Positions 840 through 63,260 of a DNA stretch of 64,000 nt are shown piece by piece. This DNA comes from Chlamydoabsidia padenii (lineage: Eukaryota; Mucoromycota; Mucoromycetes; Mucorales; Cunninghamellaceae). The DNA lies in NCBI GenBank assembly GCA_025330725.1, contig JAIWND010000004.1, forward strand, positions 620,001-684,000, written 5' to 3'. The position numbers were made by a program, and so were the translations under genes. Positions within the stretch are counted from its first letter, which is position 1, and each line of letters opens with the position of its first letter. The notes under the pieces were generated by a model that did not search any database, had not been told where the DNA came from, and saw only the letters and a list, made by a program, of their open reading frames with translations.

Positions 840-3056
840 TAAACCAACTTTTATTACTATAGACAATTAGATATTCCTTACACCGTTACTATCCCACATA
901 CACATTACTGTTATTATTACTACTACTATTACTACTATTACTACTACTATTACCATCATTACTACTATCATATTCATTTATTTACTTCATCATTGATTGT
1001 GTTTATCTTTAGTTTAGCATATAGTAACTTCCACTTTTTGTCTTGTTTTGTACATTACTTTTAATAAACTCAGCGGATTACTACGCTTATTTGCTTTGAA
1101 TGATAAAATAGTATAGTGTTGAATGATGCATTGTTATTACTATTGTAGGGGATGGAGGGTCGGCGGAATTTTAAAAAACATGATTGTCAAAGTCCGATAT
1201 TCATGCACACTAATTTTACTTGAACTGCTATGTAATCCATCTTGGAACTATATGGTGCTACTGGAGAGGAGCCTTGAGATCAATAAAAGGGATTTAATAC
1301 AATGTGATCAGGCGCATCATGCTATTACTGGATTGGTGTGATAAAAATAACTGTCCTTCCCCAGACCCTGAAAACGATTTCTAACTAAACCCCGCTTCCC
1401 GATCATTCATTGGTATTTGAGTCAAATGATATTTCCCTTTTACGGAAGTTGAATTATCAATCGAAAAGTGAGGATCGAGCCATTGTTCACCTTTGTTGAA
1501 CAAGGGTCAATGAACAAGCAATGTAAAATATAATCAACACGTTTGATTGGTTTCCGAGACAGAGTAGATCATGTGTGTGTATTTAGTGAACCCCACACCC
1601 AGATTATCATTATTAAAAATAAGTTTCGCTACAGTACCAATTGTGTAGTACAGTATCTCGTTGTTTTCCATGAGATACAAGTGCGTAAGATGAGTCCGAT
1701 TTAACTGACAAATAAAAACTATATAATGTGCGCATCATCGTGGATGTGAAAAATGAAAGTAGACCCTTATGAATTTTAGGTATCATCACCTGACAGTTGC
1801 TGATGTGATCATACCCAGTGCTTTAATGATGACCACCTTTGTCAGGGTCTGTCCCTTGAAATCGATTATACTTTTTGCTCTTCAGGAAAAAAAAAAGGGT
1901 TGTTTCATGTTGGTCAGGGTCATGACCCTGTCATGCTTTTCTTTGTAATCCAATATGTCAAATTCACACGGACAGAGTCCGCCTCCAATTCAAATCCCGT
2001 CGAGTGGGGAGATCACCCCACAAATGGAGGTTGTACTGAACAAGGCGGTAGATGAAAATACTACTTGATAAAATGGAGGGGCGGCTGCGGGTCCTTTCTT
2101 TTGTGTGAAACATGAATAAAATGGAGGAGCCACTGACATTCTGCTTCATCCTCGGAAGCATAGCGGAGGTTAAATATAAATTGGAGCAAGCAAAGAAAAA
2201 ATAAGAAAGACCAAAGGCAAAAAGCCCCTGCTTTTTTTTCTTCGGTTTCAAATAATGCGTGATCTTTGAAAATAGAATACAAATAGTAGCAGTAATAAAA
2301 TTTTTCTTGTTTTTGTGAACTCGGCGAAATTGATCGTCATCCTCGATAATTAGAAATATGAGAATGGGTAATAAACAATCAAGCAAGAGTGGGAACCTAC
2401 CACCTTTTTTCTTTCTCTAAAAAGAAATTTCAATACCTCATTACGGGTACCGACAATGAAACACCAAACAAGTTGTCGGATCAGGGTTGGTTTTTTGAAC
2501 GCCGATTGAAAACAGCATTGCATTCCCCTCAAGGAGTAATCCAGCAAGTAAGTTAAAGGATAGAGTAGTCCTAATCATAAGCATCACGGATAATACAATG
2601 TATGAATGAAGTACAAAAAAGTGGCAGGATGTCAAAGTCGGTTACAAGATCCTTCCCCTCCCAAAAGAAAAAAAGGCCCTGAAATAGGAAAAATCATTAA
2701 TAACGTAAGCACAGGGTTGGCGTGTGAAAAAAAAGCTTCAGGGTGAAATATCCTGAATCAAAATCATTATTGGTGTACAAGGAAGAGTGAAAGAATTCGA
2801 TCATGAAAGACCCTGGAACGGAACGAACTTGACTGGGCAAGTAAAAATAAAAAAGGAATTTTTTTTGAGCTCTCTCACACACGCCCCATTTTTTCAAATC
2901 CCGCCAACACAATATATAAATGTCTTTTTTTGTTTCACCCCTTCTTTTTCTCTTTCTCTTTATCTACACTTTTTTACTTTTTATCACACAAATTCTACTT
3001 TTTCTACTTGAAAAAAAAAACAAACCCTTATTTACTTTACATTAAATATTCATCTC
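840..3056. other. Intergenic spacer, ~2.2 kb
   Basis: I find no gene I can support here. The spacer holds a TTA/ACT trinucleotide microsatellite (about 900-970), the AATAAA-like 3' end of the Chs4-like gene near 1063, a perfect 16-bp palindrome CAGGGTCATGACCCTG at 1915-1930, a GTGGGG/CCCCAC hairpin near 2003-2021, and two copies of the recurrent motif (1988-1999 and 2891-2905). Short open frames in it lack coding character. Confidence 0.6.
2891..2905 (-). promoter_or_regulatory. Recurrent GGCGGGATTTRAA motif upstream of the UNC-93-like gene
   Basis: TTTTCAAATCCCGCC on the plus strand, about 150 bp before the start codon at 3057. One of close to 40 copies in the window; see the motif finding. 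Confidence 0.55.
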
Positions 3057-4599
3057 ATGGGAATTAGTTTACCATTCCGATACAACAGCCCCACTTTCCA
3101 AGTTTTCTTGGTTGGGTTTATCTGTTTCTGTTGCCCAGGTATGTTAAATAACAAGTAACTTTGATATGAATAACAAAGATTTACCTTTTTCTCTTTCTTC
3201 TTCTTCTTTAACTCTTTAGGTATGTTTAATGCCTTGACTGGTATGGGTGGTGGGGGTAAATCCTCAACAGAAGCTGTCAACAACGCCAACACTGCCTTGT
3301 CTGTAACATTCACCGTTTGCAGTCTTTTGGGTGCTCCTATCTATAACATCTTTGGTCATCGTGTCATTATCCCTGCTGCTCTCTGCTATGTCCTTTACGT
3401 TGGTACGTTTTTTACAAGTAGCGATGCTTTCCTCATTGCCGCCGGTTCTATTCTTGGTATTGGTGCAGGTTTCCTGTGGACAGCTCAAGCCGGTATCATG
3501 ATGTCTTATCCCAATGAATCCGAAAAAGGCAAAGCTTTTGCTATCTTTTGGATGATCTTCAACTTGTAAGTTGATTACATATCACGAATAGGAAAACCAA
3601 AAACTAACTTTTATTATTATTAGGGGTGCTACTATTGGTGCTGCTATCCCCCTCGGTAACAACTGGAATAACACAACAACAAGTGATGTGAACATTGGTA
3701 CCTACATTGGGTTTATGGTCATTATGGCTTTTGGTGCTTTCTTGGCTCTTGGCCTTCTTCCTCCCAGCAAAGTTATCCGAAGCGATGGTACCAATGTCTC
3801 TTTACACAAATTCTCCAACTGGAAACGTGAAGCTATTGAAGTCTTCAAACTCTTCACTAACTGGCGTATGCTGATCTTGATCCCCATGTTTGCTGGCTCC
3901 AACTGGTTTTATACTTACCAATTCCAAGTCTATAACGGTGGTGGTTACTTCAACTTGCGTGCCAGATCTCTCAACAACTTGCTGTACTGGCTATTCCAAA
4001 TCATCGGTGGTGGATTCTTCGGTTGGTTGCTTGACTGGAAGGTATTGGGTGGTCGTCGCCAACGTGCTCTCATTGGTAACACGTTTGTCCTTGTGGTCTG
4101 TGTGGCTCTATGGGTCGGTGCCATCTTCATTCAAAAAAACTTTACTTACGAATCTGCCAAGGCTCTTGCTACTATTGACAAGGTGGATGTGTTTACTCCT
4201 GGTTATGCTGGTATGGCGGTTGAATACGCTTTCTTTGGGTTCCTTGACTCAATCTTCCAAGGTTTCAGCTACTGGTTATTAGGCACAATGACCAACGACA
4301 CCGAACGTGCTGCTCGATATGGTGGATTCTATAAAACAATTCAAAATGCATTCGCTGCCGTTGCTTCTCAATTGGATGCTCAACGAATTCCCTTCATGAC
4401 CCAACTTATCATTGTCTTTGCCGTCAACGTGGTTGGTATCTTGTTGGCTTATGTCGTCTGCTTCACTGTGTCTGATGTTACGGTGGAAGAAATCGACAAC
4501 TTACAAGGCGTCCAAGGAGTTGAAACTGTGGTTGGTGGTCGTCTTGAAGATGAAGCTTTGCCTGCCAAACTGGAAATCACTGAAAAGGAATACATGTAA
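3057..4599 (+). CDS. UNC-93-like major facilitator superfamily membrane protein
   Basis: Three exons, 3057-3138, 3220-3565 and 3624-4599, give 467 residues. Both introns have GTATGT/GTAAGT donors, and the frame continues across them. The N-terminal CPGMFNALTGMGGGG and the later GIGAGFLWTAQAGIMMSYP are typical of fungal UNC-93-like transporters (DUF895/Ion_trans-like MFS branch), with about 11-12 hydrophobic segments. Fungal members are polytopic membrane proteins of unknown substrate; animal UNC-93 regulates a potassium channel. The C-terminal ~35 residues are acidic and hydrophilic, hence probably cytosolic. A copy of the recurrent motif lies ~150 bp upstream and a T/C-rich leader precedes the ATG. 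Family call is strong; transport role is inferred only. Confidence 0.88.
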
Positions 4600-5461: not shown

Positions 5462-5474
5462 AGCGGGATTTAAA
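5462..5474 (+). promoter_or_regulatory. Recurrent motif upstream of PER1
   Basis: AGCGGGATTTAAA ends 87 bp before the PER1 start codon. A second copy in the opposite orientation (GATTCAAATCCCG, 5268-5280) lies ~280 bp upstream. Confidence 0.6.
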
Positions 5475-5560
5475 TTATATGTTTTTGAAGAAAAAGGACC
5501 TGCCCTCGTCTTTATTTTTTATTTTTTCTTCTCTCTTGACTCCATACCCACCTTTCCATT

Positions 5561-6756: not shown

Positions 6757-6769
6757 GGCGGGATTTAAA
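6757..6769 (+). promoter_or_regulatory. Recurrent motif upstream of the F-box/ankyrin gene
   Basis: GGCGGGATTTAAA followed by a T29 tract (about 6781-6809) and then the ATG at 6860. It sits only 40 bp after the PER1 stop codon, so the promoter of the downstream gene is packed against PER1. Confidence 0.6.
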
Positions 6770-9383: not shown

Positions 9384-9843
9384 TGTTGTGGGTAAATAGT
9401 GATCAAGTAAAAAGGGGAAAAGAAAGAAGATAAAAAGTAAGGTGAAGAAGAAAGAAAGAAGTAAAAAATAGGGGTCAAGAAAAAAAGGACCATGATATAA
9501 GGAAAGAAAAAAAACGATTCAAACCCCGCAGAGAAAGCCATGGAAAATTTGGATTACTTGGTCCCCCCCCTTCAGCATGAAATCAAAGGTTTCACTGATA
9601 CATACAAATTTAGTAATTGGTAAAAGAAGTTTTTTTTATTAAAAAAGAATAATGATTACAAAACATGATGTAAAAGAATAAACTATGTGGGGTGATTGGT
9701 AGAAAAAGATGAATCCATGGGTAAAAAAAAAAAGCAAATGTCAAGATTAATGCTGGTTGCATGCTTGTTTTATTGTTTACCTACCAAAGTTATACTGTCC
9801 AGTATAAGATATAAACATGTGATTTTATATTGATCATCCGAGA
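9384..9843. other. Promoter-side spacer of the zinc-finger gene
   Basis: Purine-rich leader (A/G tracts at 9415-9515 on the plus strand) with one motif copy GATTCAAACCCCGC at 9516-9529. No coding signal seen. Confidence 0.5.
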
Positions 9844-14687: not shown

Positions 14688-14886
14688 GTTGATAAAAGAA
14701 TCAAACGAAGAAGAGAGAGGGAGAGAGAGAAAGGGAAAAAAAAAAGTAAGGGGAAAGAGAGAGGGAAGATATACTCCCGCCAATCAAATCATTTTAAATC
14801 CAGCACTATACTCAATCCGGCAAAAAGAAAAAAAGAAAAAAACAGTTTATTGTGATGCAAAAATAATAATACTATTCTATACAGTT

Positions 14887-16149
14887 CTATTCTATCCAAA
14901 TAAGTTTAATCCTTGAAAGATGTTGTTCCTTGTACCAATTCGATATATCTACTTGATCCTTGTGAGAAGCAGAGAGACAGAGTGTTTTCAATTCCAAGAG
15001 GTCCCGATGCCAATCCACCGCTTCTGTGGGCATTAACCAATCATCATAATAAGCCAAATCCCAGAATTTCAATTTACGCATCCCATGAGATAAAATCGAT
15101 ACCACCTGAGGACCTTGGATCCGATTAAAACAACCAGCCGAATACAACCACATGAGATGAGGAAGAGTGGATACCATGAGATAAGAAAACGTGAGCCAAG
15201 AGAATGATGACCCATCATCATCATCATCATCACCACTCTTCATCCATGATATGTTGAGTGACACCAATGTTTGACCAAGGTAAGGACTTGATAAGGTATA
15301 TGTAGTAGTAGTAGATGGATTGGTGGTGGGTCGTAAAAAGATCATGATTTCGTAAAGATCCTTCCATTTACCTATATCTTCTTGATGATCTACCAAGAGC
15401 ATAAACCTAGGCACATTGTCGTCCGTATCATCCAATTGTAAATCTTCCCAGTCATCCACAAGGTCATTATCATCCGTACTTGTTGTCATTATGTCCACCG
15501 TCCAGAACGCTCGTATCAGTCGTCCCAATGATACTTGGCTTCCCTCCAACCAAAGTTCTTCATAGTCTGTTTTTTGAAATAGATCCATTGTCGTGTCAGT
15601 TACAAGAGACCCATTAGCACCCATGAATGACCATTCGTATAAAAGCTGTTGTTTGACATGAATAGGTAAATGCTTGAATTGTGGTGAAGAAGACAATTCG
15701 GAAAGTTGGCGGCAACAAAGTTGAATGAGACTTGGTGTGGATATTGATGCTGGTTTCATTCGTTGGTGAGATGGTGTTGGTATATGTGGCAGTGGCACTT
15801 GTCGAGATCGTGTCCAAGAAGGTGGTGGTGGTGGCCCGGCTGCTGGTCTTTGAGAAGGTGCAGTACTATCAGGTGTATATAGACTGGAACTAGTTGCTAA
15901 TGACCAAGGATGCAGTTGATGAGTATCTTGATCAAGTACAACCACAGGTTGAGACATGGTGTTCACCCTATTGTCTTGTCGTTGCCTTTCTCGATTGGTC
16001 ACCGCCCTTGATTGTTCAATACGTAATTTGGCCAGTTTTTCAGTGACCGAGATGGTTGAATAGGAATCTGTTGTTGTAGTTCCATTGTTGGTTGATGTAG
16101 ACGGTGAATAGTGACGAAGCTGTGTTTTCAGTTGTCTTCCGCGGGCCAT
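14887..16149 (-). CDS. Uncharacterised 420-residue protein
   Basis: A single exon. I do not recognise the family. Residues 1-130 are basic, Ser/Thr-rich and contain a Pro run (AGPPPPPSW); from ~140 on the protein looks folded, starting with SLIQLCCRQLSEL and QLLYEWSFMGANGSLVTDTT. Later come W- and L-rich segments such as MLWLYSAGC and WHRDLLELKTLCLSASH, which loosely resemble the leucine-rich tails of fungal F-box proteins, although no F-box is visible. An acidic stretch (DDNDLVDDWEDLQLDDTDD) splits the domain. It is transcribed divergently from RPS18, with 179 bp between start codons. Codon use is like its neighbours and the frame is long and clean, so I regard it as a real gene. Confidence 0.7.
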   Translation of the reverse strand: MARGRQLKTQLRHYSPSTSTNNGTTTTDSYSTISVTEKLAKLRIEQSRAVTNRERQRQDNRVNTMSQPVVVLDQDTHQLHPWSLATSSSLYTPDSTAPSQRPAAGPPPPPSWTRSRQVPLPHIPTPSHQRMKPASISTPSLIQLCCRQLSELSSSPQFKHLPIHVKQQLLYEWSFMGANGSLVTDTTMDLFQKTDYEELWLEGSQVSLGRLIRAFWTVDIMTTSTDDNDLVDDWEDLQLDDTDDNVPRFMLLVDHQEDIGKWKDLYEIMIFLRPTTNPSTTTTYTLSSPYLGQTLVSLNISWMKSGDDDDDDGSSFSWLTFSYLMVSTLPHLMWLYSAGCFNRIQGPQVVSILSHGMRKLKFWDLAYYDDWLMPTEAVDWHRDLLELKTLCLSASHKDQVDISNWYKEQHLSRIKLIWIE

Positions 16150-16328
16150 GGTTGCTGATCGATCATTATGATGATAAATAAAGAAGAAAGAGAGATTGGG
16201 AAAAAGTGCCCCAGCTTTTTACTCGAAATTGAAATTCGATCGGCGTTTGAATCGTTTGGTTGGGCAAAACGGACACTTGTCAGCCTGAATTCAATAGACT
16301 CTCTCTTTTTCCGATATACAGCAGCACC

Positions 16329-16972
16329 ATGGTAAGGAGAAACAAAAGGAATCAATACTATAAAAGAGATTATCTATGATTGGATAGATAAAATAGATGG
16401 ATGGATGGATGAATGAATGGATGGATGATCCAGTATAATTGACTTTTTTTTTTTTTTTTTTTTTTTTTCTAATTTTAACATAACCTCTCATTCATTCCAC
16501 CTTCGATTAGTCTCTCGTTGTACCCGAACGAAACCAATTCCAACACATTATTCGTCTCCTCAACACCAACGTCGACGGTAAGGACAAGATCGTCATTGCT
16601 TTGACTTCAGTCAAGGGTGTAGGTCGCCGTTTCGCCAACGTTGCTTGCAAGAAGGCTGATGTCGACTTGAACAAGCGTGCTGGTGAATTGTCCAACGAAG
16701 AATTGGAACGTATTGTGACCATCTTGCAAAACCCTGCTCAATACAAGATCCCCAACTGGTTCCTCAACAGACAAAAGGATATCATCGATGGCAAGTACTC
16801 TCAAGTTATCTCTAACGTGTTGGATACCAAGATGCGTGAAGATTTGGAACGTATGAAGAAGATCCGTGTCCATCGTGGTCTCCGTCACTACTGGGGTCTC
16901 CGTGTCCGTGGTCAACACACCAAGACTACTGGTCGTCGTGGTCGCACTGTCGGTGTCTCCAAGAAGAAATAG
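16329..16972 (+). CDS. RPS18: 40S ribosomal protein S18 (uS13)
   Basis: Two exons, 16329-16331 (the ATG alone) and 16511-16972, give 154 residues, the normal length for eukaryotic S18. The sequence starts [20 protein letters not shown] and carries the H2TH-type core [16 protein letters not shown] and the C-terminal [20 protein letters not shown], all diagnostic of uS13. The protein sits in the 40S head and contacts the P-site tRNA and the large subunit. The first intron (179 nt, with a GGAT/GAAT repeat and a T26 tract before the acceptor) directly after the start codon is typical of ribosomal protein genes. The stop codon TAG is immediately followed by a GTAAGA donor, so the 3' UTR itself contains an intron that carries a snoRNA. 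Confidence 0.97.
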
Positions 16973-17373: not shown

Positions 17374-18412
17374 CTATTCTACAATGATTCCTTGTTGCGC
17401 TGCCCACGTTGTCGCCAGGGTTGTGATGACATGAGCATCTTCATGCGATAAATCACAAAGCACGACTTTTCCCAAAATATCCAAACGGGTCATTTGCCAT
17501 TCCGGAGAGATGTGATCGACAAACTTGCCATAGAATTCATGATCCGACGTGTCCATGGCATACCGCTCGTACCAAAGCAATAAATCGGGATCCTCCGTAT
17601 TGTCACTGATCGCCCTAAAAGTCAGAGGGAGTCGGGATGCAAAAGGAATTAGACCGTATCGTGTGTCGCCTGGCTTGATCGGAGGGCGCGCTTGATAAAA
17701 CTCATGCAAGAGAAGGGTTTGACACCAAAAGGGAATCGCACCACGAATCATCATATCGCCTTGTTTGTTTCCTGCATTGATATATCGCGCACCGATTGTG
17801 TAGCTGCAAGTTGTGGTGGATGGTCGGAGGTAGTTGTTTGAGATTAGACCGGCCATATCATTGTAATCAAACGTAAATATATCTACTCCCCCCCCCCACA
17901 AAAAAAAAAGAGTGAGTTACCTTTTCTGGATTTATTTGGTTAATCTTACCTTGTTGACCTGTTACTCCAAAGGACGAACTGTTGAGAATGTGATCCAAGT
18001 TGTTGTATTGCTGTTGTTGTTTCTGTACGACAAAAACACCGTGATCAAGTCGTAACACATTCACCAGAGAGAGTCCAAGACAGTGAACCAGCCGGAAGAG
18101 GATGTGTTCCGATCGTTCACGCCGATAACCAAATGCGTCCTGTGAACTGAATGGATCCGAGTTAAAGTCAAAACTGGCCCCATGAAGTCTACAGTAATCG
18201 CAACACGTTTTATCACCATCGTATTCAATCAAATAGTCATGAGGAGACGGGAGACCCACACCTGTGGATGAGAATAAGTCTTGTGTAATACGATCCACCA
18301 CATACCGCCAGGTATTTGAGTTGATTGGTTGTTGATTGGGTTGATTCGAGCAGGCACATTCGTTTCTTTGTCCAAGACTAAAAGCCTTAGAGGTCCTACT
18401 ATTGGTATCCAT
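17374..18412 (-). CDS. Uncharacterised protein, tandem paralogue A
   Basis: Two exons, 18412-17950 and 17885-17374, give 324 residues. It is a clear paralogue of the next gene upstream (19688-18577). They share a Cys-containing N-terminus, then DPF-x-DA-x-x-Y-R-x-x-RSEHIL, FDYNDxxGLIS, IGARY/LGARY, IRGAIPFWCQTL, a P-x-x-TRYGLIPFA-x-x-LPLTF block, LLWYERYAMD, and an ending like TTWAAQQG. I do not recognise the family and see no signal peptide or membrane segment. The acceptor region is odd: GGGGGGGGGGAGTAG offers two in-frame AGs three bases apart, so exon 2 could start at 17882 instead of 17885. The start was chosen to match the MD start of the paralogue. A motif copy (18510-18522) lies ~98 bp upstream. 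Confidence 0.75.
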
Positions 18413-18509
18413 TACGTAAAACAATACAAACAAGTATAATGCAAAAAAAAAGAGAGAGAGAGAGAGAGAGATAAATATAAAGTTTATTCATTTAATGATC
18501 AACATTGGA

Positions 18510-18522
18510 GGCGGGAATTCAA
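18510..18522 (+). promoter_or_regulatory. Recurrent motif upstream of paralogue A
   Basis: GGCGGGAATTCAA, ~98 bp before the ATG of the minus-strand gene and only ~55 bp past the stop codon of paralogue B. Confidence 0.55.
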
Positions 18523-18576
18523 TCATGTCCAGGACCCGCCCCGGTTTTCCGCCTTTTTTCCTCCTTACTATAAAGA

Positions 18577-19688
18577 CTAATGTAGTAGATATCCTTGATT
18601 CGCCGTCCAAGTGGTGCCCAATGAAGTGATGAGTTGAGCCAAATCAGGAGGTATATGACAATACACAAGTTTATCCAATACCATTCGTTCGTTGGCATTC
18701 CAATAGGCATTGTCATCGTCAAGAGGAGAGTGTTCTTCACCCACGTTATCCATTGCAAAGCGTTCGTACCATAATAAGATTTCCGGTTCATCGTTAGTCT
18801 GTCGATCTGGGATCTGTTGGTTAGTCAGGATACTGAAGGTGAGTGGTAGGTGTGGTGCAAATGTGATCAATCCATATCTTGTTTCGTTAGGTCGTATGGG
18901 TGGTTGGGCACTGTAAATGTCAAATAGTATGAGAGTTTGACACCAAAGAGGAATGGCGCCCTGTATCATATAATCTTGTTGATGACCACTTAGGCTTGTG
19001 TATCGAGCACCAAGAGTGTATGTATATGGAATAAAATCGTCGGCTGGTATCTGGTTTCCTTGGTTATTCTTGTTGAGAGGATCGTCTTGTAGGTTGGGAG
19101 AAATCAGTCCAATCAAATCATTGTAATCGAAATCGGATACCGGTGCGGTCGTACCTAGATAACAAATTTAATTGATCATTTAGTTGGTAAGTTGGTCAAA
19201 TCACCCAGCCACTTACTTTGTAGGTCACCCCCAAGCGGAGTAAAGGAATTGTCATTAGAGAAGGAGTCCAACCAGGAAGAAGAATGTTCGCTTGGTTTAT
19301 GATCAGAGTACCGGAAAGGGCGAGCTTGCTGTGCCACGAAGACACCCTTGTTGATACGGAGAATGTTGATATCGTCGAATTCCAACTTGATCTTGTGATA
19401 GATTCGATAGAGAATATGTTCTGAACGTTGTTGTCGGTAATGCAACGCATCAATAGCACCAAAAGGATCAGTATTGAAGGCCACATCGAATCGTTGTTGT
19501 GTACAGTAATCACAGAGATCAGTAGGAAGGCCAAGGTGTGGGTCGGGCGTGGGGACTCCTACACTGGTTGAGTTATACATATCCCGTATTACATGATTCA
19601 TCGCACGTTTCCATACTTCTGGCTCTCTAAACTTTTCCAAACGATTCTTGTCGCAAGTGCATTTTGAGTGTGATGTGTAGATATCCAT
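18577..19688 (-). CDS. Uncharacterised protein, tandem paralogue B
   Basis: Two exons, 19688-19217 and 19154-18577, give 349 residues. It has the same single intron, in the same phase (1) and just before the FDYND block, as paralogue A, so the pair arose by tandem duplication of an already intron-containing gene. Shared blocks include TDPFGAIDALHYRQQRSEHI, GARYTSLSGHQQDYMIQGAI, PLWCQTL, NETRYGLITFAPHLPLTF and LLWYERFAMD. Both proteins have N-terminal Cys pairs (KCTCDK here, CACSN in A) and a C-x2-C (CDYC) ~60 residues in, which could bind metal; this is inference. Divergence outside the blocks is large, so the duplication is not recent. Function unknown. A motif copy (19768-19780) lies ~81 bp upstream. 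Confidence 0.75.
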
Positions 19689-19767: not shown

Positions 19768-19780
19768 TCTAAATCCCGCT
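19768..19780 (-). promoter_or_regulatory. Recurrent motif upstream of paralogue B
   Basis: TCTAAATCCCGCT on the plus strand, ~81 bp before the ATG at 19688. Confidence 0.55.
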
Positions 19781-23064: not shown

Positions 23065-23077
23065 GGCGGGATTTAAA
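23065..23077 (+). promoter_or_regulatory. Recurrent motif in the divergent ABCD / FBXO9-like promoter
   Basis: GGCGGGATTTAAA lies ~224 bp from the ABCD start and ~273 bp from the FBXO9-like start. It is the only good copy in this 508-bp divergent spacer. Confidence 0.55.
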
Positions 23078-26926: not shown

Positions 26927-26940
26927 ATTCAAATCCCGCT
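26927..26940 (-). promoter_or_regulatory. Recurrent motif in the divergent Trf4-like / NPC1 promoter
   Basis: ATTCAAATCCCGCT on the plus strand, ~80 bp before the Trf4-like start and ~257 bp before the NPC1 start, in a 349-bp divergent spacer. Confidence 0.6.
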
Positions 26941-33088: not shown

Positions 33089-33102
33089 ATTTGAATTCCC
33101 GC
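33089..33102 (-). promoter_or_regulatory. Recurrent motif upstream of PRP38
   Basis: ATTTGAATTCCCGC on the plus strand, ~84 bp before the ATG. A T30 tract (about 33129-33159) lies between motif and start codon. Confidence 0.6.
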
Positions 33103-33186: not shown

Positions 33187-34369
33187 ATGGGTAAGTCTAT
33201 ACTATAAACCACTTGCTATAGAATTGGATATACTAACTCTTACTGTTTTGTAATAGCTAATCGAACAATATCTGGTGCTAATTGGATCCATGGACGAGAT
33301 CCACAACATTTGATTGAAAAGATCATTCGAGAACGTATCTATGATTCCATGTACTGGAAAGAAGAATGTTTTGGTTTGACAGGTAGACTATGAATACTAC
33401 CCTGAATCCCTCTTTTTGTAAACTAACTTTTTCTTTTGTATATAGCTGTCACTTTGATGGACAAGGCGGTGGAATTGACTTGTATCGGGGGTGAATACGG
33501 TAATCAAGTACCTACCAACTTTTTATGCTTGACTTTGAAAATGCTACAACTTCAACCTGAACGGGAAATCTTGACGGATTTGATCAAACAAGAAGACTTC
33601 AAGTAAGTTGGGAAACTAGTAATTAGGATGGGGGGGGAAGGAATCAGGAATTGGTTGGTTAATCTTCCTCATTTTTAGATACCTTCGTGCACTTGCGGCC
33701 TTTTATCTTCGTATTGTAGGTCAATCCAAAGAAATATATCAATACCTGGAACCACTCTTGAATGACTATAGAAAACTCAAGGTCCGAGTTGGCAGTAAGT
33801 CATAATTGAGATACCATACAAAAAAAAAAAAAAAACTGATCTTTTAATATATAGGTGGGTATACTCTATCTCATATGGACGAATTCATCGACCAATTATT
33901 ACACCAGGAACGTGTATGTGATGTGATTCTACCTCGACTGGTCCAACGACATGTGCTGGAAGACAATGACGAATTAGAACCTCGGGTCAGTGCTTTGGAA
34001 GACGATCTGGAAAGTGAAGACGGTGGTGATAATGATGAAGAAAAAGGATCGGAGGAACAACGACATCGAAGCCCTAGCTCCAGTCCTGAACGAGAACAAA
34101 GACGACACCGTAGTCCTAGCTCCAGTCCTGAAAGAGAACAAAGACGACACCGTAACCCCAGCCCTGAACGACGACGACGACATGGACACTACAGCAGCGA
34201 CGACGACGACAGTGATCGTGATGGACGACATGGACGATCTTCGGGACACTCCTCCTCATCAAGACATCGTGGATCCTCATCAAGACATCGCCATCATTCA
34301 TCATCATCAAGGCACCGATCAAGATATAGAAGCCCTAGTAGAAGTAGTAGTGAAGATAGACGTAAATAG
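33187..34369 (+). CDS. PRP38: Pre-mRNA splicing factor PRP38
   Basis: Exons 33187-33190 (ATGG only), 33257-33382, 33446-33602, 33679-33794 and 33855-34369 give 305 residues. The conserved core begins ANRTISGANWIHGRDPQHLI and runs through CIGGEYGNQVPTNFLCLTLK and YLRALAAFYLRIVGQSKEIY to the DVILPRLVQRHVLE end of the PRP38 domain. The C-terminal ~110 residues are acidic and then Arg/Ser/His-rich (SPSSSPEREQRRHRSPSSSP), an RS-like tail present in animal and many fungal PRP38 but absent in budding yeast. PRP38 is a U4/U6.U5 tri-snRNP (B complex) protein needed for spliceosome activation. The four-nucleotide coding first exon is supported by a GTAAGT donor and a phase-correct MANRT restoration. 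Confidence 0.95.
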
Positions 34370-34512: not shown

Positions 34513-35652
34513 TTAGGAAGACCAGGCAATATGATGTTCAGCAAAAAGTAAAAACCCTTGAGGCACCCACCGTTGTTGATCACGTTGACAGAATTCCAAG
34601 CAGATAGTATCGTCTTCCCGATGTTCATACACAAACACGCAATCAAACCGATCACCTTTCTTGAGCCCACCTTTCCGTACATTTTGTTTGAGAGTGCAAT
34701 TGTAGAGAGTCTGAAGTAAGCACGGCTGCCAACCACGGTATGCCTTGTAGTAGTTCATCGGAACAGGCGTTCCATCCAATTTGTCTTGTATTTCCAGTAA
34801 ATCGGTCCAGGAACGATCAGTGAGGATCCCTTCGTCTTCATACCATAGTCGACCATAATGACAATTCAGCTCTTGATCAAATGCCACCACTGTATCCGTA
34901 TCATGAATAAGAGCAAACAAAGTATCGCCTGCCACAGGAGGTTTATCGTATGGTGTCGTGTCTTTCTTGAGTGTGGGGATGATGATATCATGTTGGTATG
35001 GTGCAGTATTTTGTTGAAGTGTCACTTGATAATATACTCGTCGAGGCACCCCGTTCATGACTCGATGGCGATGACATGATGAGGCTGTGGCGACAAATGT
35101 TTTGTTGACCAAAGTAGGGATCGTCAAGGTACTTGAATGTGAATGGATGGTGCGATGGTGGTGTCGTTCGGATGCACGGTTAAAGACTTGTAAGAGGGTC
35201 TTTTTGAGATTGTTGTTGTTGGCATAGTCAGTAAAGTGGCAAAAGTGCACTGTGGGGACCAGCTCCAGCAAGGCAATGGCTGACACGGATGAGATTGGAA
35301 TGGTGGACGAGGCGATAAACCGGCAAAGTGTCCGTCGGTATAGATCTTGTTGGTGACGTAAAGAGGCAAGATCGGTTTGGCTGTAATGGTGATTGTGTTG
35401 TTGCTGTTGTTGCTGTATTCGGTTACTTTTGTTACTGCTGTTGTATATGTAATACTTGTGAGGGCTACCAGATTGACAATGAGTATCGTCGACCAAGATT
35501 CGGTAAAGGAAGGAGTAGCGGATGTTGAATGAGCAGCCAATACGGTGCAATAGAGGGTGGATCATGCATAGTCGATAATATTCCAAAGGTGTGTCGGCAT
35601 AGTCGAATAAAAAGCATAATAGTTCATTGGGTAAATCAAGTAAGGATGACAT
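34513..35652 (-). CDS. F-box-like protein of unknown target
   Basis: A single exon of 379 residues. The N-terminus LLDLPNELLCFLFDYADTPL followed by YRLCMIHPLLHRIG fits an F-box. A Gln/His run (IQQQQQQHNHHY) follows, and the C-terminal half has a compact region with GDTLFALIHDTDTVVAF, YKAYRGWQPCLLQTLYNCTL and FLLFAEHHIAW that I do not recognise. By analogy it could be an SCF adaptor; the substrate is unknown. A motif copy (35795-35806) lies ~143 bp upstream. The 3' end is convergent with PRP38, ~140 bp apart. Confidence 0.7.
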   Translation of the reverse strand: MSSLLDLPNELLCFLFDYADTPLEYYRLCMIHPLLHRIGCSFNIRYSFLYRILVDDTHCQSGSPHKYYIYNSSNKSNRIQQQQQQHNHHYSQTDLASLRHQQDLYRRTLCRFIASSTIPISSVSAIALLELVPTVHFCHFTDYANNNNLKKTLLQVFNRASERHHHRTIHSHSSTLTIPTLVNKTFVATASSCHRHRVMNGVPRRVYYQVTLQQNTAPYQHDIIIPTLKKDTTPYDKPPVAGDTLFALIHDTDTVVAFDQELNCHYGRLWYEDEGILTDRSWTDLLEIQDKLDGTPVPMNYYKAYRGWQPCLLQTLYNCTLKQNVRKGGLKKGDRFDCVFVYEHREDDTICLEFCQRDQQRWVPQGFLLFAEHHIAWSS

Positions 35653-37398
35653 TGATTCACTTGTTATGCTGAGTTGGAATAATAATAATAGTGAAGAAAA
35701 AGAAAAAGAAAAAAATAAAAATAAAAAAAGTGAAGAAGTAGAAAAAAGAAAATGGTCAAAGATTTTTTCATTTTATATTCTGGCAATGGTAGAATTTCAA
35801 ATCCCGAATCCAGGATCTTTACGTGCATTACTTGGTCAAAGCACAGATCACTAGTTCCTTCTCTTTTATTTTAGTACGTCAATAATATCGGATCATCATT
35901 ATATTAATAAAGAAAAGAATGATCATAGAGGAGATGACCTTGGCAGTGGAAGGAGGTCATTCGTTCGGAAGCAATGACGTTATCGGGATTTGAAAATACA
36001 CATCCACCTGGTTGATCTGCTTGTTGGCCACCTACCCTTTTGTCCCAATGTTGCAAATGATCAATATGTGTCATTGGACCCTGTCTCTTCATTTAGATAC
36101 AATTTCAGTTTAAATTAATAAATTTTCCATTATGTTTATACTAGGTTTGCATTGAATAGTGGTAATGAGCTACATATGCATTATAAAAGGAAAAGAGGGA
36201 CGTTCATCTTCATGTGGTCAATATAATGCATCCGTGCTCATTCAGGGAGAGTGATGCTGAATTTGAATCCAACTTGACTGGAATGACCTGTTCCTGTTAA
36301 CCCCATGAATCTGCAATGTCATTAGACCAGTTAAGATTACTTATCAGGAACAACATGATCCCCATTGTAAAAAAGATAGAATGAATTTGATCTGGTCCGC
36401 ATTATTCCACCACTCTATTGACTTCATTCACATACATATACATACAGCTAAGTTAAACATTTGACTAAAGATACAGTTTTTTTATTATTATTAAGTGAGA
36501 GAGAATAAAAGTCTATCACTAGTTTAAAAGTAATAGTAGTATCGGATATCCTGAACAAGACAATTAATCATATAGTGAGTTATGTGTATATCATGCATCT
36601 TATTGTCATTCAGTCTGATCTTGTTTTTCTTTTTCTTTATCAAACTTACATAGTATCCAGTTCTTAATTTTAAAATTATCAAGACCAATGTTCTTAAATA
36701 CTGGAATCAAAGTAGTAGGTCATAAACGTCTTGTTGGACTAATAGAGTAAAGAGTCCACCTACAAAAGAGACAGACAATGCCATCGTTTTCTGTGTCGAT
36801 CCAACTTCGATTTATAGTTCCACAGAATCGTAATTCCAAGAAGGATCAGGAGGAAGATAAAATAAAAAGTTAGATCAAGTTCACAAATCGGTATAATCTT
36901 TTTGTTACCTCATCATTCCAAGTGTTGGATCATCCCCCTTTTTATAGTACGACCTTGATAAAAATAAAAACAGTTATTACGGTTATCACACTGTTGTTTT
37001 TCATTCAAGCCATTTTAGTATTCACCTTCATTTTAGTCGAGTTATATAACAAGAGATTTATTGTGAGTATTGCTTTTCCGTTTTCCATGTACTTACTATA
37101 CCAACCTGCCCATGACCATTTGTGTTATATTGATGGACCTTGATTTATAAAGTGGAAAAAGTCAGTTCAACCAGTATTTTTAAAAAGTGTCGTCTGTGGC
37201 TGCAAGTGTGCATCATAATACTTGACCCCCACCCCCACCCATGAATCAAGTATTGACAGAGATGGGGAAGTAAAAGAAAAAGAAAGAAAAACGCCGGCTC
37301 TACTTTTTTTTTTTTTTCTCAAGATTTATTCAGGCGGGATTTGAAAACCTGAGCTTGCACAATAATGTATATGCAGAAACGAGATTTTTAATTAATGA
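35653..37398. other. Gene-poor spacer, 1.7 kb
   Basis: No gene that I can support. It contains motif copies at 35795-35806, 35983-35996 and 37333-37346, short AT-rich repeats, and a short open frame at 36922-37143 whose product is hydrophobic but lacks coding-like composition. Confidence 0.5.
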
Positions 37399-40386: not shown

Positions 40387-40662
40387 TATAAAATAAGGGT
40401 CAAATGGAATAAATAAAAAGAAGAAGAGAGGTGAAAGAAAAAATAACAAGGCCCTACACAAAAGCCACTACCTACATTTGATTTTTAAAGTCCCGAATCT
40501 TTTGAGCCAATCAGATTCGACCCCTTACATACCTTGGCTTTTTTTAATCATTCTGGAAAGAGACAAGTCTACAAGTAAAGTCATACCATACAATTACATA
40601 AACGGGAGATTAGAATAGTAACTTTATTAAGGTAAGATAAAAATGGAATGGGGAAACTATAG

Positions 40663-41016: not shown

Positions 41017-41030
41017 AAGCGGGATTTGAA
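41017..41030 (+). promoter_or_regulatory. Recurrent motif in the eIF2B delta / small membrane protein divergent promoter
   Basis: AAGCGGGATTTGAA, ~82 bp before the eIF2B delta ATG with two T-rich tracts in between, and ~116 bp before the divergent 53-residue gene. Confidence 0.6.
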
Positions 41031-41111: not shown

Positions 41112-43212
41112 ATGGATTCAGCGCCAAAGTCAACGGTAAGACAATAAAGACAAGTAAGAAAAGAAACATTAACAAACTGACCATTATTCATGTTGTATCT
41201 TTAGCCTCTCCATATTCCTCAATCTGGCAGTCGCGGTATGGGCATCGCCGGCTCACCTAGCATGGGCCAACCCATGAGCTCTTCTTACGAAAATCAATGG
41301 CTACTCAGTGACGACAAGAAAACACCAGGACATCGAAAAAGCATAGCGGAAGACACCAAACCCAAACTAGACACCTCTACATTACCCAACAACAATTCTT
41401 CACCATCGGGGGCTCCTATCCGAAAAAGTCAAAAGAACATGACCAAAGCCGAACGTCGAGCCTTACAAGAACAACAACGCTTGGAGAAAGAACGTCGTGT
41501 GGCGGCCGGTTTACCCAAGAATGCGAAAAAGGCTGCCGAATTACTGGAAAAACAACCTAGCAGCAAACCATCAACACCAAAAATGCCACCTTCTACACCA
41601 ACAACAGCCGCCGGTGACGATAATAGTAATTCTTCTACAAACAAAAAAGCAGCACTTCAAAAGGCCGCCCAAAGGAATCAAGTACCTTGGCTTTTGCATT
41701 TGGACGCACCTAAGCGACCGGATACTGCGGGATCTTACAAGGACTTGCACCCTGCTGTCAAGACGTTGGCTTTATACTTCTCTGAATACAAGATCGTGGG
41801 CTCTAATGCTAGATGTGTGGCCATGCTGGAAACATTCTCAAAGGTATCTATCTATATAGGAAAGGGGGTTGGTGGTGATTGGGATTAATAGTAGACCATG
41901 TATAACTAAGCTCTTTCTCTTTCTGTCTTTTAAATATATAGGTGATTGAAGAACATCGTCCTCCTTCTGATGCTACCTTCTCAAGACATATTCAAAAACA
42001 CTTGGACCCACATATTGCTTACCTCTTGGCAACTAGACCCATGTCTCTCAGTATGCGTGAATGTATCCGATGGCTCAAGAAAGAAATGTCCGACATTGTA
42101 GAAGAAGATCCTCCTCTGGCTGACAATGATGCACGACACCGACTGATGGAACGTATTGAACACTTTATCCGAGAAAGAATCACCATGGCTGATCAACTTA
42201 TTGTACAAAATGGATTGCAGAAGATCAATGATGGTGAAGTGATCTTGACTTTTGGGAAATCATCCGTGGTGGAAAGTCTATTGTTGGCTACGAAGAAAAA
42301 GGGGATTGACTTTAAGGTGATTGTTGTCGATAGTCGTCCCCTCTTTGAAGGTAAATTTATATGAAAGCAAGTGATCATGGAACTAATGGCTTCTTTTTAT
42401 ATTTTATTTTATGTAGGCAAACATTTATTACGAAGATTGGCGGCGGCTGGGATTGATTGCTCTTATCATTTATTGTCCAGTGTTTATGTGGCCTTATCCT
42501 CGGTGACAAAAGTGATCATGGGTGCTCATGCCTTACTGAACAATGGCGCTGTTTATTCTCGTGTGGGTACTTCTTTGGTGGCAATGGCAGCCAGTGATAA
42601 ACAGGTAAGTCAATACAAAGACACACACCAACAAGATGATAAACTCTTCTTTCTTCTTTTTATGTAGATCCCTGTGATGATTTGCTGTGAAACATACAAG
42701 TTTGTTAATCGCACTCAAGTAGATTCTTTTGTTATGAATGAAATTGGTAAGAAAAAAAAAAAAGAAAAATCCATTCATTTCCATCATTATTAAATCTCTT
42801 TCGTTTTATCATTAGGTAATCCGGATGATTTGGTGAACACAAAGGCCAAATTCAACTCCCATCATCAAGGCCATCCCAACCCTACCACCTCGGCTTTAGA
42901 AAACTGGCGTGAACAACCTAATCTCAGACTGCTGAATCTCCTCTACGATGTCACTCCTTCAAAGTATATCACTCTGGTTGTTACCGAAGTGGGTCTCATC
43001 CCTTGTACCTCTGCTCCTGTGGTAAGTATACTTAAATTGAGGAATCATGACAATACTTTTTACTAATAACTGTTTTGTTTCTATGACAATAGATTTGGCG
43101 TGAATATAAGTAAGTGATAACCCCTCATCCCCATGAAATCATATTATTGACTCACTCTTACCTTTTTATTGCTGTGTTGTATAGTGAGGAATTTGGCAAA
43201 CGGGACAAATAG
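41112..43212 (+). CDS. GCD2: Translation initiation factor eIF2B subunit delta (GCD2)
   Basis: Eight exons, 41112-41135, 41205-41843, 41942-42350, 42417-42604, 42668-42746, 42816-43021, 43093-43109 and 43185-43212, give 529 residues. The N-terminal ~150 residues are Lys/Pro/Ser-rich with a helical Ala/Arg/Glu segment ([18 protein letters not shown]). The C-terminal eIF2B alpha/beta/delta regulatory domain includes [34 protein letters not shown] and [21 protein letters not shown]. The final [14 protein letters not shown] is close to the family end. The delta subunit is part of the regulatory core that senses phosphorylated eIF2 in the exchange factor complex. The 17-nt exon 7 is a genuine micro-exon: without it the frame breaks. 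Confidence 0.95.
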
Positions 43213-44400: not shown

Positions 44401-45045
44401 TATATAGAATAGTAGAAATAGTAGCATACCCTCTCTAACTACCTCCCCCGCCTCTCTCTCTCTCTTTTGTTTTATTTGATACTTATGAATAATAAAAACT
44501 ACTATTGACTATGTATGAATGTTTGATTATGCAAAGGTGGTCTATGACACGTGATTAAATGTGTGTATTAATGGGTTGTTACTATATAAAAATGTAGGTC
44601 AAAGTAGATTGAGGGAACTTGTGACAAGTAGACCACATCTTGAAAGATCATGGCCAAATGGATCAGGATATTACATGCTGGCTCTATCAAACAAGGAATT
44701 GTCTTTATCTTAACAATAATAAAAAGGTTGCCAGTCAAGTCCCTTTATAGAAATACAAGATTACTCTTGAGAGGACTGATCATGAAGCTTAAAACAATGA
44801 AGTGGAGTAATGTCGTTCAACTGCCGCACTTTGGATTCCGTGTTACATTGGGTTCCTTTAATTTTCAAATTCCGACATTTTTCTTTGATTCAAAATCCAT
44901 TTTCTCCCTCCTTTTTTTCTTCTTCTTCCTCTTTCTTTTTTAATCCTCTTCATATATACAAATACGGACATTGCAGTAACAACAACGATTCTTTACCAAT
45001 ACTTTACCTCCACCAACAACAGCAACAAACAATTCACTATCATCA
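44401..45045. other. Spacer and leader of the RasGAP gene
   Basis: Carries the 3' end of the VPS68-like gene (CT-rich, AATAAA-like at ~44491) and a motif copy TTTTCAAATTCCGAC (44862-44876) followed by a pyrimidine-rich leader. The short open frames here are not convincing. Confidence 0.5.
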
Positions 45046-48027: not shown

Positions 48028-49164
48028 TTTGACCATTTTGTGGATCATACTGTAGCACCATTTTCTCCCTTCCTCCCTTTTATCTTTTATATTGTTGTCT
48101 TAATCCATTTATTACTCTAGTCTCACAACCCTTACCTATTTATATTCATTCATATTACTTTTTACATATGTTTATGCAGTTATTCTCCTCATGTCTTCTT
48201 ATGTATAATAAACGTAGGAGCTGTTTTACTCTGAAATACAATCTACCTTAGTTGACCAAATATAAATCATGTATTACTGTTGTTGTTATTTGATGTGGAA
48301 GTAGAGGTAAAAAAAAAATGATAGAGTACTGTAACCATTCTCGGTCTCTGTTCTGTCCTTTTGATTCGTCTATGAGCGACTGATTTACGTTGCAGTCGAC
48401 GCTTTCCATGCATGAATCGGGATTTGAAAATCAAAAATCCGTCCATGGAAGTAAAGCTATTCACTAATGCATAGGCGATGAAAGTATCTATGTCATATAA
48501 TACAAGTACACAAATGGTGAAAATAACGACAATAGTAGTTGACTGTAATAGCAGATCGTTTTATAATAAAGACCTTTTACCACAATTTAAAGACCATAAA
48601 TACAAAACAGAGACATTCAAGTCTATGTAAATAAGCTTCTTTTTTTTTTTTTGGTTCGTTTTTTTATGTAATAAGGATGATGACGAATATAATGATCTAT
48701 AAAACCAAATAGAGGGGACCACACACAGTCAGTGTTACCAGTGCATTTACCTATCCACGATCTCGCATCCACCGCCAAACACCATTGATTCGGAAAATTC
48801 CGTCATGGCCAAGTTATCAAAAGGGCATGACAGTAAGGAGAATCAACCCAAACGTTATATATTAGGGGAGCATCCTATCTAGCAAAGTAGGAACCCGTTA
48901 TGATTTGGAGCCGATGTTTCAAAAATGCATATTTAAACCCCGTCCTCGTCTCTTGTTGAAACCTGGAAAACGGGAAATGATGTCCCCTTTTTTTTTTTCT
49001 TTTTTTTGTGTTTAGCCTATGTGAAAAGTCAATTGGTTCACTCACTTTATACCACCTTTTGATAAAAGAATGTATGTGGTTTTGTCTTTATGTCCTCAAT
49101 TTGACAAATCGTTCAAACGGTGGCACGTTTCAAACGCCGACAGTGGTGGAAGTAACAAATCCCG

Positions 49165-51455: not shown

Positions 51456-52031
51456 GATGTTGTTATGTATATATTTATGTTCAATGAAGAAAAAAAAAAG
51501 AGAAGGTAGCAGCTGTTCCTTTTTTTCTTTTTATTATGAATCTATCAAGAAAAAAAAAATGACCTGATTTGATTTTTGAATACCGCCTGTTTGTCTCTCA
51601 TACGTTGGAAAATAACATGATTTTCGGTATCGCCGGTGATACATAATCCCCTGTCCTATTTCCTTTCAGTCATCACCAACCCAACTTCTGTCAGCATATA
51701 CCCAACAATGCAAGATTACTTTCACATACCTCATGATAAAGCGCATCGTCTTTGGCGGGATTTAAATCCCATCATGCAACCGGATGCTAATTAAAATCCC
51801 GACCACATCAGGCAAATCACTTTTGCATAGAATAATCAATGTGTACATTTGAGGATATGAGTTTGATCTCGACTAGATAAGAACAAAAGTAAGACCGAGT
51901 TTATCTAAAAGAATGTTTTTATTTTGATAGTTCAATTGTGTGTTTTATAATTAATTAATTAACAATGGAGTGGATGGAATAATATATAATAATACAGTTA
52001 CTAAAGGTAAAAAGAGTAGGGATAAAGATGA
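51456..52031. other. HEM13 upstream / PHO89 downstream spacer
   Basis: Contains the palindromic motif copy GGCGGGATTTAAATCCC (51754-51770), a neighbouring TTAAAATCCCG (51791-51801) and T/A-rich tracts. No gene seen. Confidence 0.6.
51754..51770. promoter_or_regulatory. Palindromic double copy of the recurrent motif
   Basis: GGCGGGATTTAAATCCC contains GGGATTTAAATCCC, a perfect 14-bp inverted repeat made of two half-copies sharing TTTAAA. It lies ~300 bp upstream of HEM13. A further single copy follows at 51791-51801. Confidence 0.55.
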
Positions 52032-56321: not shown

Positions 56322-56899
56322 GTTCTAATGTTAGGTTAAAAAGAAAAAGAAAAGGAAAAAGAGAAGAATTCAAACCTCCTTTTGATTAAAATGTTTAAAC
56401 TCCGAAAGGTTCGCCTTTGAGATATGTACTCATGCTTCTTCTTCCTAGTATGAAAAAAAAATCTATTGTTTTCATGTGCTTGTCTTCGTACCTTTTAGAA
56501 TGATGATATTAAAAAAGAAGATTTGGCGATTCCCTTCATGTTTACACATCACAATGCCCCTGAAGGCTATTGTGGATCTAGTATACTTTATCATATGGTA
56601 TGATCAGTGTCATTACCTTTGTGTATCCGACTTTGTGGTTATCATATGCAAGACATATACCATGAATGTAGTTGGCTTTTATGCAAATCTCATGTTATAC
56701 TCATTGACATGTTCCTGAAAGGGGTAATACATTGAGTGTGTAATGACGTTTGAATATTTAAATTCACGCGCCGCTTTTATCCAAGAAACTTTCCCCACAC
56801 TTATTTTTTGACTTTTTTTCTTTCTTTTGGATATTTAACATTATTAATGACTTTTCAACTATTCTCAAACTTGATTTTTTAAACAAAAAAAGAACACTC

Positions 56900-60342: not shown

Positions 60343-60552
60343 ATGTATGATTTTTTATTAAGTGTCACCTTGAGATTTTTTTTTTCTTGGTTTTAACTGT
60401 ATGTATAGTACTTGGCCATCAATTCATCATTGGACTATTTGACATAAAAGCTCAATTGATACTATTGATTCTGTATAAAAGTGACATGTGGACATAACAG
60501 GTATATGATATGTCTGGGGGGTATGATATTTCGGGGGTATGATTGTCCGTAT

Positions 60553-60567
60553 TTTTTAAATCCCGCC
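60553..60567 (-). promoter_or_regulatory. Recurrent motif upstream of ERG4
   Basis: TTTTTAAATCCCGCC on the plus strand, ~95 bp before the ATG. Confidence 0.6.
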
Positions 60568-60661
60568 CGGCCCGTAAAAATATTTTTCTATGATATAAAT
60601 CAAAAATGTCTCTTTTCTTCTTTTCTTCTCTTTTCTTTACTCTTCATCTCTTTTGTTAACC

Positions 60662-62286: not shown

Positions 62287-63260
62287 ACCTTATAATTCCA
62301 ATCCCCCTCTTTTGTATGTAGTAGTAGTAGTTAATTTATTAGTATAGTTATAGTTTACTTATTTTCTTTATTGTGTCGATGAAATCAATAAATATCAATA
62401 ATATCATCACTTAAATGTCTTGTTACAATCGAATACTTGTCTTTAACTATTATAATAATAATTAATAAAATTGTTGTCTCATTCCACACTTGATCAGTAC
62501 TTTTGATTATATTGCTATCATACTTGGTAAAAAATATACTCTACATTTACCAATCGTGTCTAAACAATCTCTCCTCTTTCAACCAGTATATATTATTTCT
62601 CTTCCGTAAACTTATGATGGCAAACCTGTATTCTACTTTTTTATTCATTCCAAGTGATCAACAAGAACAATGGAACTTGATTAACGTCGGGATTTAAATT
62701 ACCACATCTTGCATTAATTGTCGGCATTTACATTATCTTGATCATCTTTAACGTTAAATGATTCAGGATACGATACACCGGCTGGTCGAATATTATAAAG
62801 ACAATGTTGCAAAATGTTTAAATAGATTAAACTTTATTAAATCGAATGGGAGGGAAGACGGAGCGACACCACTTTATGATCTACAGCAGGTACCCTAAAT
62901 TCGAAAACCGCTCATCTGTGTATATTGACACTACTACTGGAATGTTGGGAAACAGAAAAGTGTATACCAGTACATAACATGTGTTTTTACGGAAGCCATA
63001 AACTGAACTTGACAATGGATTAACGACTTTGTTTCAGCATTGCCCAGAAGCAGGCAAAGCGGGATTTGAATATGATTTACCAACCAAATTGAAAAAAAGT
63101 TGCGCGGCCGTGAATCTTTTCTCTTTTCTTTTCACCAAACTCATGAACCTATGATAAAACTCAACGTATTCTTCGACATTATATGGTTATCAACATTTAC
63201 ACGGCATCAACGACCACCTATCCCGACAACAACTGATAGCAAAAGGAGTTGGTCGATTAG
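62287..63260. other. Spacer downstream of ERG4
   Basis: 3' end of ERG4 (AATAAA-like at 62388), motif copies at 62687-62698 and 63057-63070, and short unsupported open frames, including one at 63151-63339 of uncertain coding value. Confidence 0.5.

Follow-up and report, generated by a model that had tools for sequence, protein, structure and literature searches.

A short motif recurring upstream of genes in Chlamydoabsidia padenii, the probable site of a general promoter factor

Results

The motif RKCGGGRTTTRAAWW was analyzed in a window of 64,000 nucleotides from the Mucorales fungus Chlamydoabsidia padenii (contig JAIWND010000004.1, labelled C34, positions 620001-684000), where it recurs about 80-140 bp upstream of the coding start of many genes, directly before a long run of pyrimidines, and is probably the site of a general promoter factor. 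The genome comprises 34.2 Mb in 95 contigs, and the sample chosen for close reading covered 314 of its 34,228 kb, i.e., the window, 200 kb of contig C1 and 50 kb of contig C56. The window yielded 29 gene predictions, of which one was cut by the edge and four were judged to be continuations of the preceding gene (30026, 42041, 47054 and 61309), so that 24 genes were retained. The starts of PER1, PRP38, the RasGAP gene and the zinc finger gene were corrected by hand from the translations, and the start of the second of two tandem paralogues was taken from the paralogue alignment.

A first-pass annotation of the window had placed a copy of the motif about 70-100 bp before the start codon (ATG) of eleven named genes, and the distances of the nine that were measured are 78-104 bp. 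GCGGGATTTAAA at 5463..5474 (+) lies 93 bp before the ATG of PER1 (5561; Per1 Pfam match), and the same word at 6758..6769 (+) lies 97 bp before the ATG of the ankyrin-repeat gene (6860; also a Pfam match). The tandem paralogues, which are both encoded on the minus strand, have GCGGGAATTCAA in antisense orientation 104 bp before the first (18511..18522, +; ATG 18412) and GCGGGATTTAGA 85 bp before the second (19768..19779, -; ATG 19688). PRP38, the start of which was read by eye (ATG 33187), is preceded at 91 bp by an antisense copy of GCGGGAATTCAA (33091..33102, -), bL32m (ATG 40386, -) at 104 bp by TCGGGACTTTAA (40485..40496, -), the sugar transporter gene (ATG 56321, -) at 78 bp by TCGGAGTTTAAA (56394..56405, -), and ERG4/ERG24 (ATG 60662, +) at 102 bp by an antisense copy of GCGGGATTTAAA (60555..60566, -). 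The last of the nine is a start at 41112 (+), taken as that of eIF2B delta, with GCGGGATTTGAA 88 bp ahead of it (41019..41030, +). In line with the first-pass annotation, we infer that this start and the IF-2B domain at 42818-43021 belong to one eIF2B delta gene, which was split in two by the gene finder.

Further genes have a site at a somewhat larger distance. GCGGGGTTTGAA (9518..9529, -) lies 140 bp before a zinc-finger-like gene (ATG 9383, -; start and zinc finger were read by eye), TCGGGATTTGAA (35796..35807, -) lies 149 bp before a gene starting at 35652 (-), and GCGGTATTCAAA (51575..51586, -) lies 125 bp before the gene for coproporphyrinogen oxidase (ATG 51455, -). The best protein match of this enzyme was from Absidia cylindrospora (Mucorales, Cunninghamellaceae; 90% identity), and stronger copies of the motif are also found near its gene, at 51755-51766 (+) and 51791-51802 (-). 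The distance is largest for three genes with antisense sites, namely the RasGAP gene (ATG 45046, +, start by eye; TCGGAATTTGAA at 44864..44875, -; 177 bp), the ABC transporter gene (ATG 22829, -; GCGGGATTTAAA at 23066..23077, +; 242 bp) and NPC1 (ATG 27197, +; GCGGGATTTGAA at 26928..26939, -; 264 bp). A special case is the divergent promoter of 179 bp between 16149 and 16329. In its middle lies a lone variant site, TCGGCGTTTGAA (16240..16251, +), which is 84 bp away from RPS18 (16329, +; Ribosomal_S13 Pfam match) and 96 bp away from the neighbour at 16149 (-), and it may serve both genes. Altogether, a site is present in the range of 55-160 bp in 15 of the 24 genes of the window (in one case a weak site with a posterior of 0.63), and 20 of 24 have one within 310 bp.

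Some of these genes have extremely short first exons. That of PRP38, as read by eye, hardly exceeds the start codon, i.e., ATGG (33187-33190) is followed by GTAAGT, and a tiny first exon was likewise predicted for RPS18 at 16329. Such exons defeat an annotation that is based on open reading frames (ORFs).

Abundance and shape of the motif

The window contains 11 exact copies of GCGGGATTTRAA, seven on the plus strand and four on the minus strand. With at most one mismatch there were 21 copies, compared to a mean of 0.67 and a maximum of 4 in 100 dinucleotide shuffles. The octamer CGGGATTT/AAATCCCG was also observed 21 times, and an order-2 Markov model predicted 1.65 copies. Mixture models fitted by expectation maximization were anchored on CGGG, which defined the core sites, or more broadly on CGG, while an unanchored fit had drifted to purine-rich sequence. 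They were trained on the 314-kb sample itself, with the exception of a half-split cross-validation. In the window, 53 sites were detected on both strands between 1163 and 63070 by a model whose training sample included the window, of which about 3-6 are expected to be false, based on 17-31 sites per 314 kb of Markov sequence. The claim that the motif recurs far beyond chance was therefore upheld, and the case for it is stronger than had been stated. The list of copies behind it needed some revision. A consensus-seeded model that was blind to the coordinates recovered 31 of the 32 copies listed as good (not that at 49154), but only 20 of the 32 are within one mismatch of the 12-mer. Four of the seven copies listed as weak were recovered, while those at 14773, 14792 and 59725 were missed, and the listed positions were off by 0-3 bases.

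Genome-wide, the same pattern in reverse reading served as control, a comparison in which the dinucleotides differ. GGCGGGATTTRAA occurs 1,145 times (553 + 592), and the reversed pattern is absent (0 + 0). For exact RKCGGGRTTTRAAWW the numbers were 3,194 (1,625 + 1,569) versus 1 (0 + 1), and for KCGGGATTTRAA with at most one mismatch 12,640 (6,321 + 6,319) versus 156 (84 + 72). The genome-wide count that had been proposed as a check was far above the control for all three patterns. In the 314-kb sample, CGGGATTTGA was the most over-represented 10-mer that passed the low-complexity filter (51 copies versus 0.37 expected from an order-3 Markov model). The CGGG-anchored model estimated about 177 sites among 751 CGGG, of which 171 had a posterior above 0.5. 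The CGG-anchored model, which also captures CGGA, CGGC and CGGT forms, found 255 sites with a posterior above 0.5 among 3,466 CGG. When the sequence was reversed, the same model detected 11, and order-3 Markov sequences of equal length gave 17, 31 and 23. The net number of about 230 sites per 314 kb (255 less 17-31) suggests, by extrapolation, some 25,000 sites in the genome.

The consensus is R K C G G G R T T T R A A W W. The G at the sixth position is found in 68% with A, C and T tolerated, and the second R position is most often occupied by G (57%). The words CGGGAATTCAA and CGGGAATTGAA are present in 7 copies each in the 314-kb sample. A form that is longer by one base, CGGGGGTTTAAA, accounts for 5 of 11 matches with longer spacing. 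Longer matches recur in the window (11148 and 58311) and in the C1 sample, and 10 of the 11 contain TTTAAA and not TTTGAA, hinting that the right half is chosen according to the spacing.

Beyond about 15 bases the information content is nearly nil, and no common or alignable flanking sequence was found outside of this core. This bears on the idea that the motif was left behind by a mobile repeat, the ends of which inserted upstream of genes. The very high copy number would be in line with such an origin, but the constrained position and a variation of the core that is typical of a binding site speak against it, together with the missing flanks, and we regard it as extremely improbable. Equally hard to believe is a TFIIIC B-box, i.e., an extra-TFIIIC site, or a tRNA remnant. 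The complement TTYAAATCCCG resembles a tRNA T-arm, and words like TTCAAATCCCG are present in tRNA T-arms, with a paper on human tRNAs among those listed for this word. However, the motif has A/T where the B-box requires GG, the B-box pattern GGTTCRANYCC occurs in just 2 copies in 314 kb, and ARAGORN found no tRNA in the window.

Position relative to genes and pyrimidine tracts

The great majority of the sites, 237 of 255, lie outside of predicted genes, 15 are in exons and 3 in introns, while non-genic sequence makes up 53% of the bases. Upstream of 103 well-scored predicted genes, 11 sites fell into the bin of 75-99 bp before the ATG, and every other displayed 25-bp bin contained 0-4. Starting from the sites gave a similar picture. 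At a distance of 80-100 bp from 140 near-consensus sites there were 14 coding-like ATGs, compared to 2.5 expected from random points outside of genes. The positional peak that had been named as a further check was hence found, and it is sharp with respect to predicted coding starts. It was absent for the starts of single-ORF genes, because the genes are intron-rich.

A set of 113 genes with a score of at least 20 and at least 320 bases ahead of the start was grouped according to whether the last 100 bp ahead of the ATG contain an uninterrupted stretch of 14 or more pyrimidines. Such a run is present in 48 of the 113 genes. In cross-validation with models trained on the other half, 32 of these 48 had a site at 55-160 bp (18/27 and 14/21), and 6 of 48 had one in the next window of 160-265 bp. 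In contrast, only 4 of the 65 genes lacking a run had a site at 55-160 bp, and 9 of 65 had one in the following 105 bp. The model that was trained on all data gave 33/48 and 4/65, and, thus, 37 of 113 genes with a site. Moreover, 62 of the 103 genes had no core site within 600 bp, and these 62 include 3' fragments, since the gene finder misses short first exons. Ten genes without a nearby core site were compared with Pfam, and in four of them the match was confined to an inner or C-terminal portion of a protein (Rpb1, saccharopine dehydrogenase, an RSN1-type channel and RasGAP). Many of the 65 starts lacking a run have therefore probably been called wrongly. The earlier statement that the motif lies upstream of most genes holds for the genes with a run (32 of 48) and for the window (15 of 24 at 55-160 bp), but not for the automatic starts as a whole (37 of 113), many of which are doubtful.

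The pyrimidine tract also allowed a test that does not depend on gene models. Runs of at least 12 pyrimidines pointing away from the 171 core sites were counted, and random points outside of genes as well as purine runs were used as controls. Per 100 sites, 22, 29.2 and 17 pyrimidine runs started at distances of 20-40, 40-60 and 60-80 bp, respectively, compared to 8 for random points (7.6 at 40-60 bp) and to 9, 3.5 and 4 purine runs in the same three bins. Within 100 bp, 100 of the 171 core sites had a pyrimidine run, versus 918 of 3,000 random points (31%) and 45 of 171 for purine runs (26%). Conversely, among 589 mixed pyrimidine runs of at least 12 bases outside of predicted genes, 128 had a core site at most 90 bp upstream, and 35 had one at most 90 bp downstream. 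The spacing indicates a unit with the order site, 20-60 bp, pyrimidine tract, ATG. For the three window genes, checked by hand, with an ATG 177-264 bp away from the site, a pyrimidine-rich stretch follows the site at 20-70 bp (RasGAP), 60-100 bp (ABC transporter) and 60-120 bp (NPC1). Thus, it is apparently the tract and not the ATG to which the site is linked, if only loosely for the ABC transporter gene and NPC1. The hexamers AAAAAA or TTTTTT were also frequent near sites (907 versus 590 expected), and the pyrimidine tract accounts for a part of this.

Stretches that precede pyrimidine runs and have no core site were enriched in TCGGAAT, CGGAATTT and AAACGCCG, which look like weaker versions of the same motif. 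Other enriched words, TTCATGCAA and CACTTTAA, are seldom found just before pyrimidine runs. Two other over-represented words of the 314-kb sample that are not simple repeats lie around TTGCATGAAT and CCACTTTAATC, and they are also rare immediately upstream of the runs.

The association with the tract was equal on both sides of the motif, with 59 sense and 57 antisense sites, and in the 17 genes that carry a core site 60-130 bp ahead of the start, 9 sites were sense and 8 antisense. Hence, the first-pass impression that the GCGGGATTT sense is more common was not supported. This independence of orientation speaks against an element acting at the level of the RNA, a reading that was rejected. It is also relevant for the proposal of a directional core-promoter element, which would present a TATA-like TTTRAAWW with a GC-rich flank of the TFIIB type to the basal machinery. 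The gap of 20-60 bp to the tract falls in the range of core promoters, and TTTRAAWW is A/T-rich, but a flank beside a TATA-like core should impose a direction, and none was seen. In addition, the predominant G at the second R position is unfavourable for TBP, and TATA[AT]A was equally frequent with a site (12/84) and without one (36/283). This proposal is therefore very unlikely.

Paralogues and functions of the genes

Four pairs of paralogues with E <1e-10 are present in the 314 kb. In three of them, both members carry a site 85-104 bp ahead of the ATG, and one of these sites, GCGGGGTTTCATT, is weak. These pairs are ERG4/24 (one gene on C34 and one on C1), two mitochondrial carriers and the tandem pair at 17374-19688. 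As judged by eye in this small sample, the remainder of the promoter has diverged between the paralogues that kept the site, and in the tandem pair the two sites even have opposite orientations.

Of the 17 automatically selected genes that have a core site between 60 and 130 bp upstream, 13 matched a Pfam family and four matched none. The families are flavin oxidoreductase, homogentisate dioxygenase, ankyrin, 3-hydroxyisobutyrate dehydrogenase type, kinase, CSN8/PSMD8/eIF3k (twice), tRNA synthetase, ERG4/24, CAP-Gly, DNA polymerase delta-like and mitochondrial carrier (twice). By inspection, the genes with a site, including those of the window, are a broad and mostly housekeeping set with metabolic, translation, splicing and transport genes, and they do not look like a cell-cycle regulon.

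The latter point is important for a comparison with the composite cell cycle-dependent element/cell cycle genes homology region (CDE/CHR) of animals, which is read by E2F and LIN54. Both begin with a GC-rich half that resembles an E2F site and continue with a half similar to TTTGAA, and the TTTRAA of the motif matches the CHR core. In this explanation, which we consider unlikely, E2F/DP would recognize the CGGG half and a LIN54-type CXC protein would recognize TTTRAA, as at the DREAM target promoters of animals, with an extension to general genes. The human halves are spaced by 4 bases, whereas the spacing in the motif is about 2, and GCG is needed only weakly. A similar build of two halves is found in the LIN-54 hybrid motif of Caenorhabditis elegans, which resembles an E2F site in its 5' half and a CHR in its 3' half and is related to human CDE/CHR (PMC3093354).

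The genome contains six E2F/DP domain matches above the cut-off, which would provide the first of the two proteins. Three of the six have a RRVYDALNV helix, which is DP-like. In five of the six E2F/DP loci of about 3.2 kb each, 10 matches to the motif were present (at most one mismatch or the form longer by one base), and there was none in the sixth (L014). The second protein was not found. LIN54 was not detected with the Pfam family TCR, with a typed CXC region or with a DNA signature (3 matches, all with 2 mismatches, versus 5 in the control), and LIN9 was not detected in the genome either, all of these being searches that had no positive control. RB_B gave a match only below the cut-off, and the loss of pRb with retention of E2F has been stated for zygomycetes in the accessible text of PMC4862756. 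On the side of the DNA, T at the first position, as found in 37-43% of the sites, breaks the GCG core of E2F, and variants such as CGGGAATTCAAT (18511 in the window) have no TTYRAA. The targets, too, are not restricted to the cell cycle. It is distinctly unlikely that a cell-cycle element of the E2F/CHR type became the default promoter element of the lineage, in that after the loss of Rb, and perhaps of MuvB, retained and multiplied E2F/DP proteins came to act as a general promoter factor reading KCGGGATTTRAA at most genes.

Discussion

The analysis directly showed that the motif exists and is abundant, that it has a defined position with respect to predicted ATGs and pyrimidine tracts, that it is independent of orientation and that three of four paralogue pairs have retained it. 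The strong over-representation, the sharp position, the mixed targets and the lack of a preferred orientation fit a general or housekeeping promoter element. The first-pass annotation had proposed a general promoter element or a transcription factor site of this lineage, and the positional peak, the spacing to the tract, the scarcity in coding sequence, the conserved paralogue sites and the mixed targets are sequence features that support it. We think it probable that RKCGGGRTTTRAAWW is the site of one abundant, sequence-specific promoter factor of a general housekeeping type, which acts in either orientation, places initiation at the tract and keeps the promoter free of nucleosomes.

The binding of a protein, the sufficiency of one protein, the opening of chromatin and the location of the transcription start are the parts that we infer. 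According to this model, an abundant sequence-specific protein would bind RKCGGGRTTTRAAWW, whichever way the site points, at about 20-60 bp ahead of the pyrimidine tract. The bound factor would clear nucleosomes from the promoter and position the initiation complex, and transcription would begin within the tract or directly past it. The resulting 5' leaders would have a length of a few dozen bases.

Several results weigh against this reading. Among the 24 genes of the window, four lack a site in the 310 bp ahead of the start. For the UNC-93-like gene and the phosphate transporter gene the distances are 324 and 541 bp, respectively, and for two genes there is none within 700 bp. Several sites in the window, e.g., those at 62687 and 63059, have no identified gene, and for 71 of the 171 core sites no run of pyrimidines starts within 100 bp. 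Raw counts of ATGs near sites showed no clear peak. Divergent gaps had more sites per kb than convergent gaps (0.79 versus 0.50), but with a stricter gene set the values were 0.55 and 0.54, and this comparison on its own lends the reading no support. The fourth pair of paralogues is kinase-like with 24% identity. One member has a site at 93 bp, whereas the 600 bp next to the predicted start of its partner contain no core site. The gene starts were predicted by a home-made gene finder, which missed short first exons, e.g., those of PER1 and PRP38, and the subset of 48 genes was selected by a pyrimidine run, a feature that is itself associated with the sites.

Elements with a role comparable to the proposed one are known from other organisms. 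In yeast, the sites of Reb1, Abf1 and Rap1 occur in the promoters of diverse genes, in either orientation and with poly(dA:dT) nearby, and the motif is likewise found in diverse promoters, free of orientation and with A/T runs in its vicinity. The yeast sites are farther upstream of the starts, and the Reb1 word TTACCCG is unlike the motif and is present in 15 copies in 314 kb. In Drosophila, the promoter elements of DREF and M1BP are, like the motif, found at many housekeeping promoters near the start, which is directed by a factor instead of a TATA box, but their sequences differ, and the factor proposed here is putative. In the part of PMC10183819 that is available, housekeeping promoters are described as taking up the canonical complex poorly and recruiting factors such as DREF. 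The GA element of TATA-less yeast promoters, which an excerpt of PMC3217976 links to the assembly of the initiation complex, is also a short word of promoters without TATA, but, judged by its name, another one. Among the matches listed in a literature search there was neither a general promoter motif of Mucoromycota nor any description of the present motif, and the available portion of a review on fungal DNA methylation names no such word (PMC13297926).

One word at about two thirds of the promoters recognized by their tract (32 of 48) would offer a handle for the choice of start sites, for gene annotation and for expression vectors in Mucorales. The same word would also be a route to the identity of the main promoter factor of the Mucorales. 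In addition, it makes a question testable, namely whether the general promoter factor is swapped between fungal lineages while the gene set stays.

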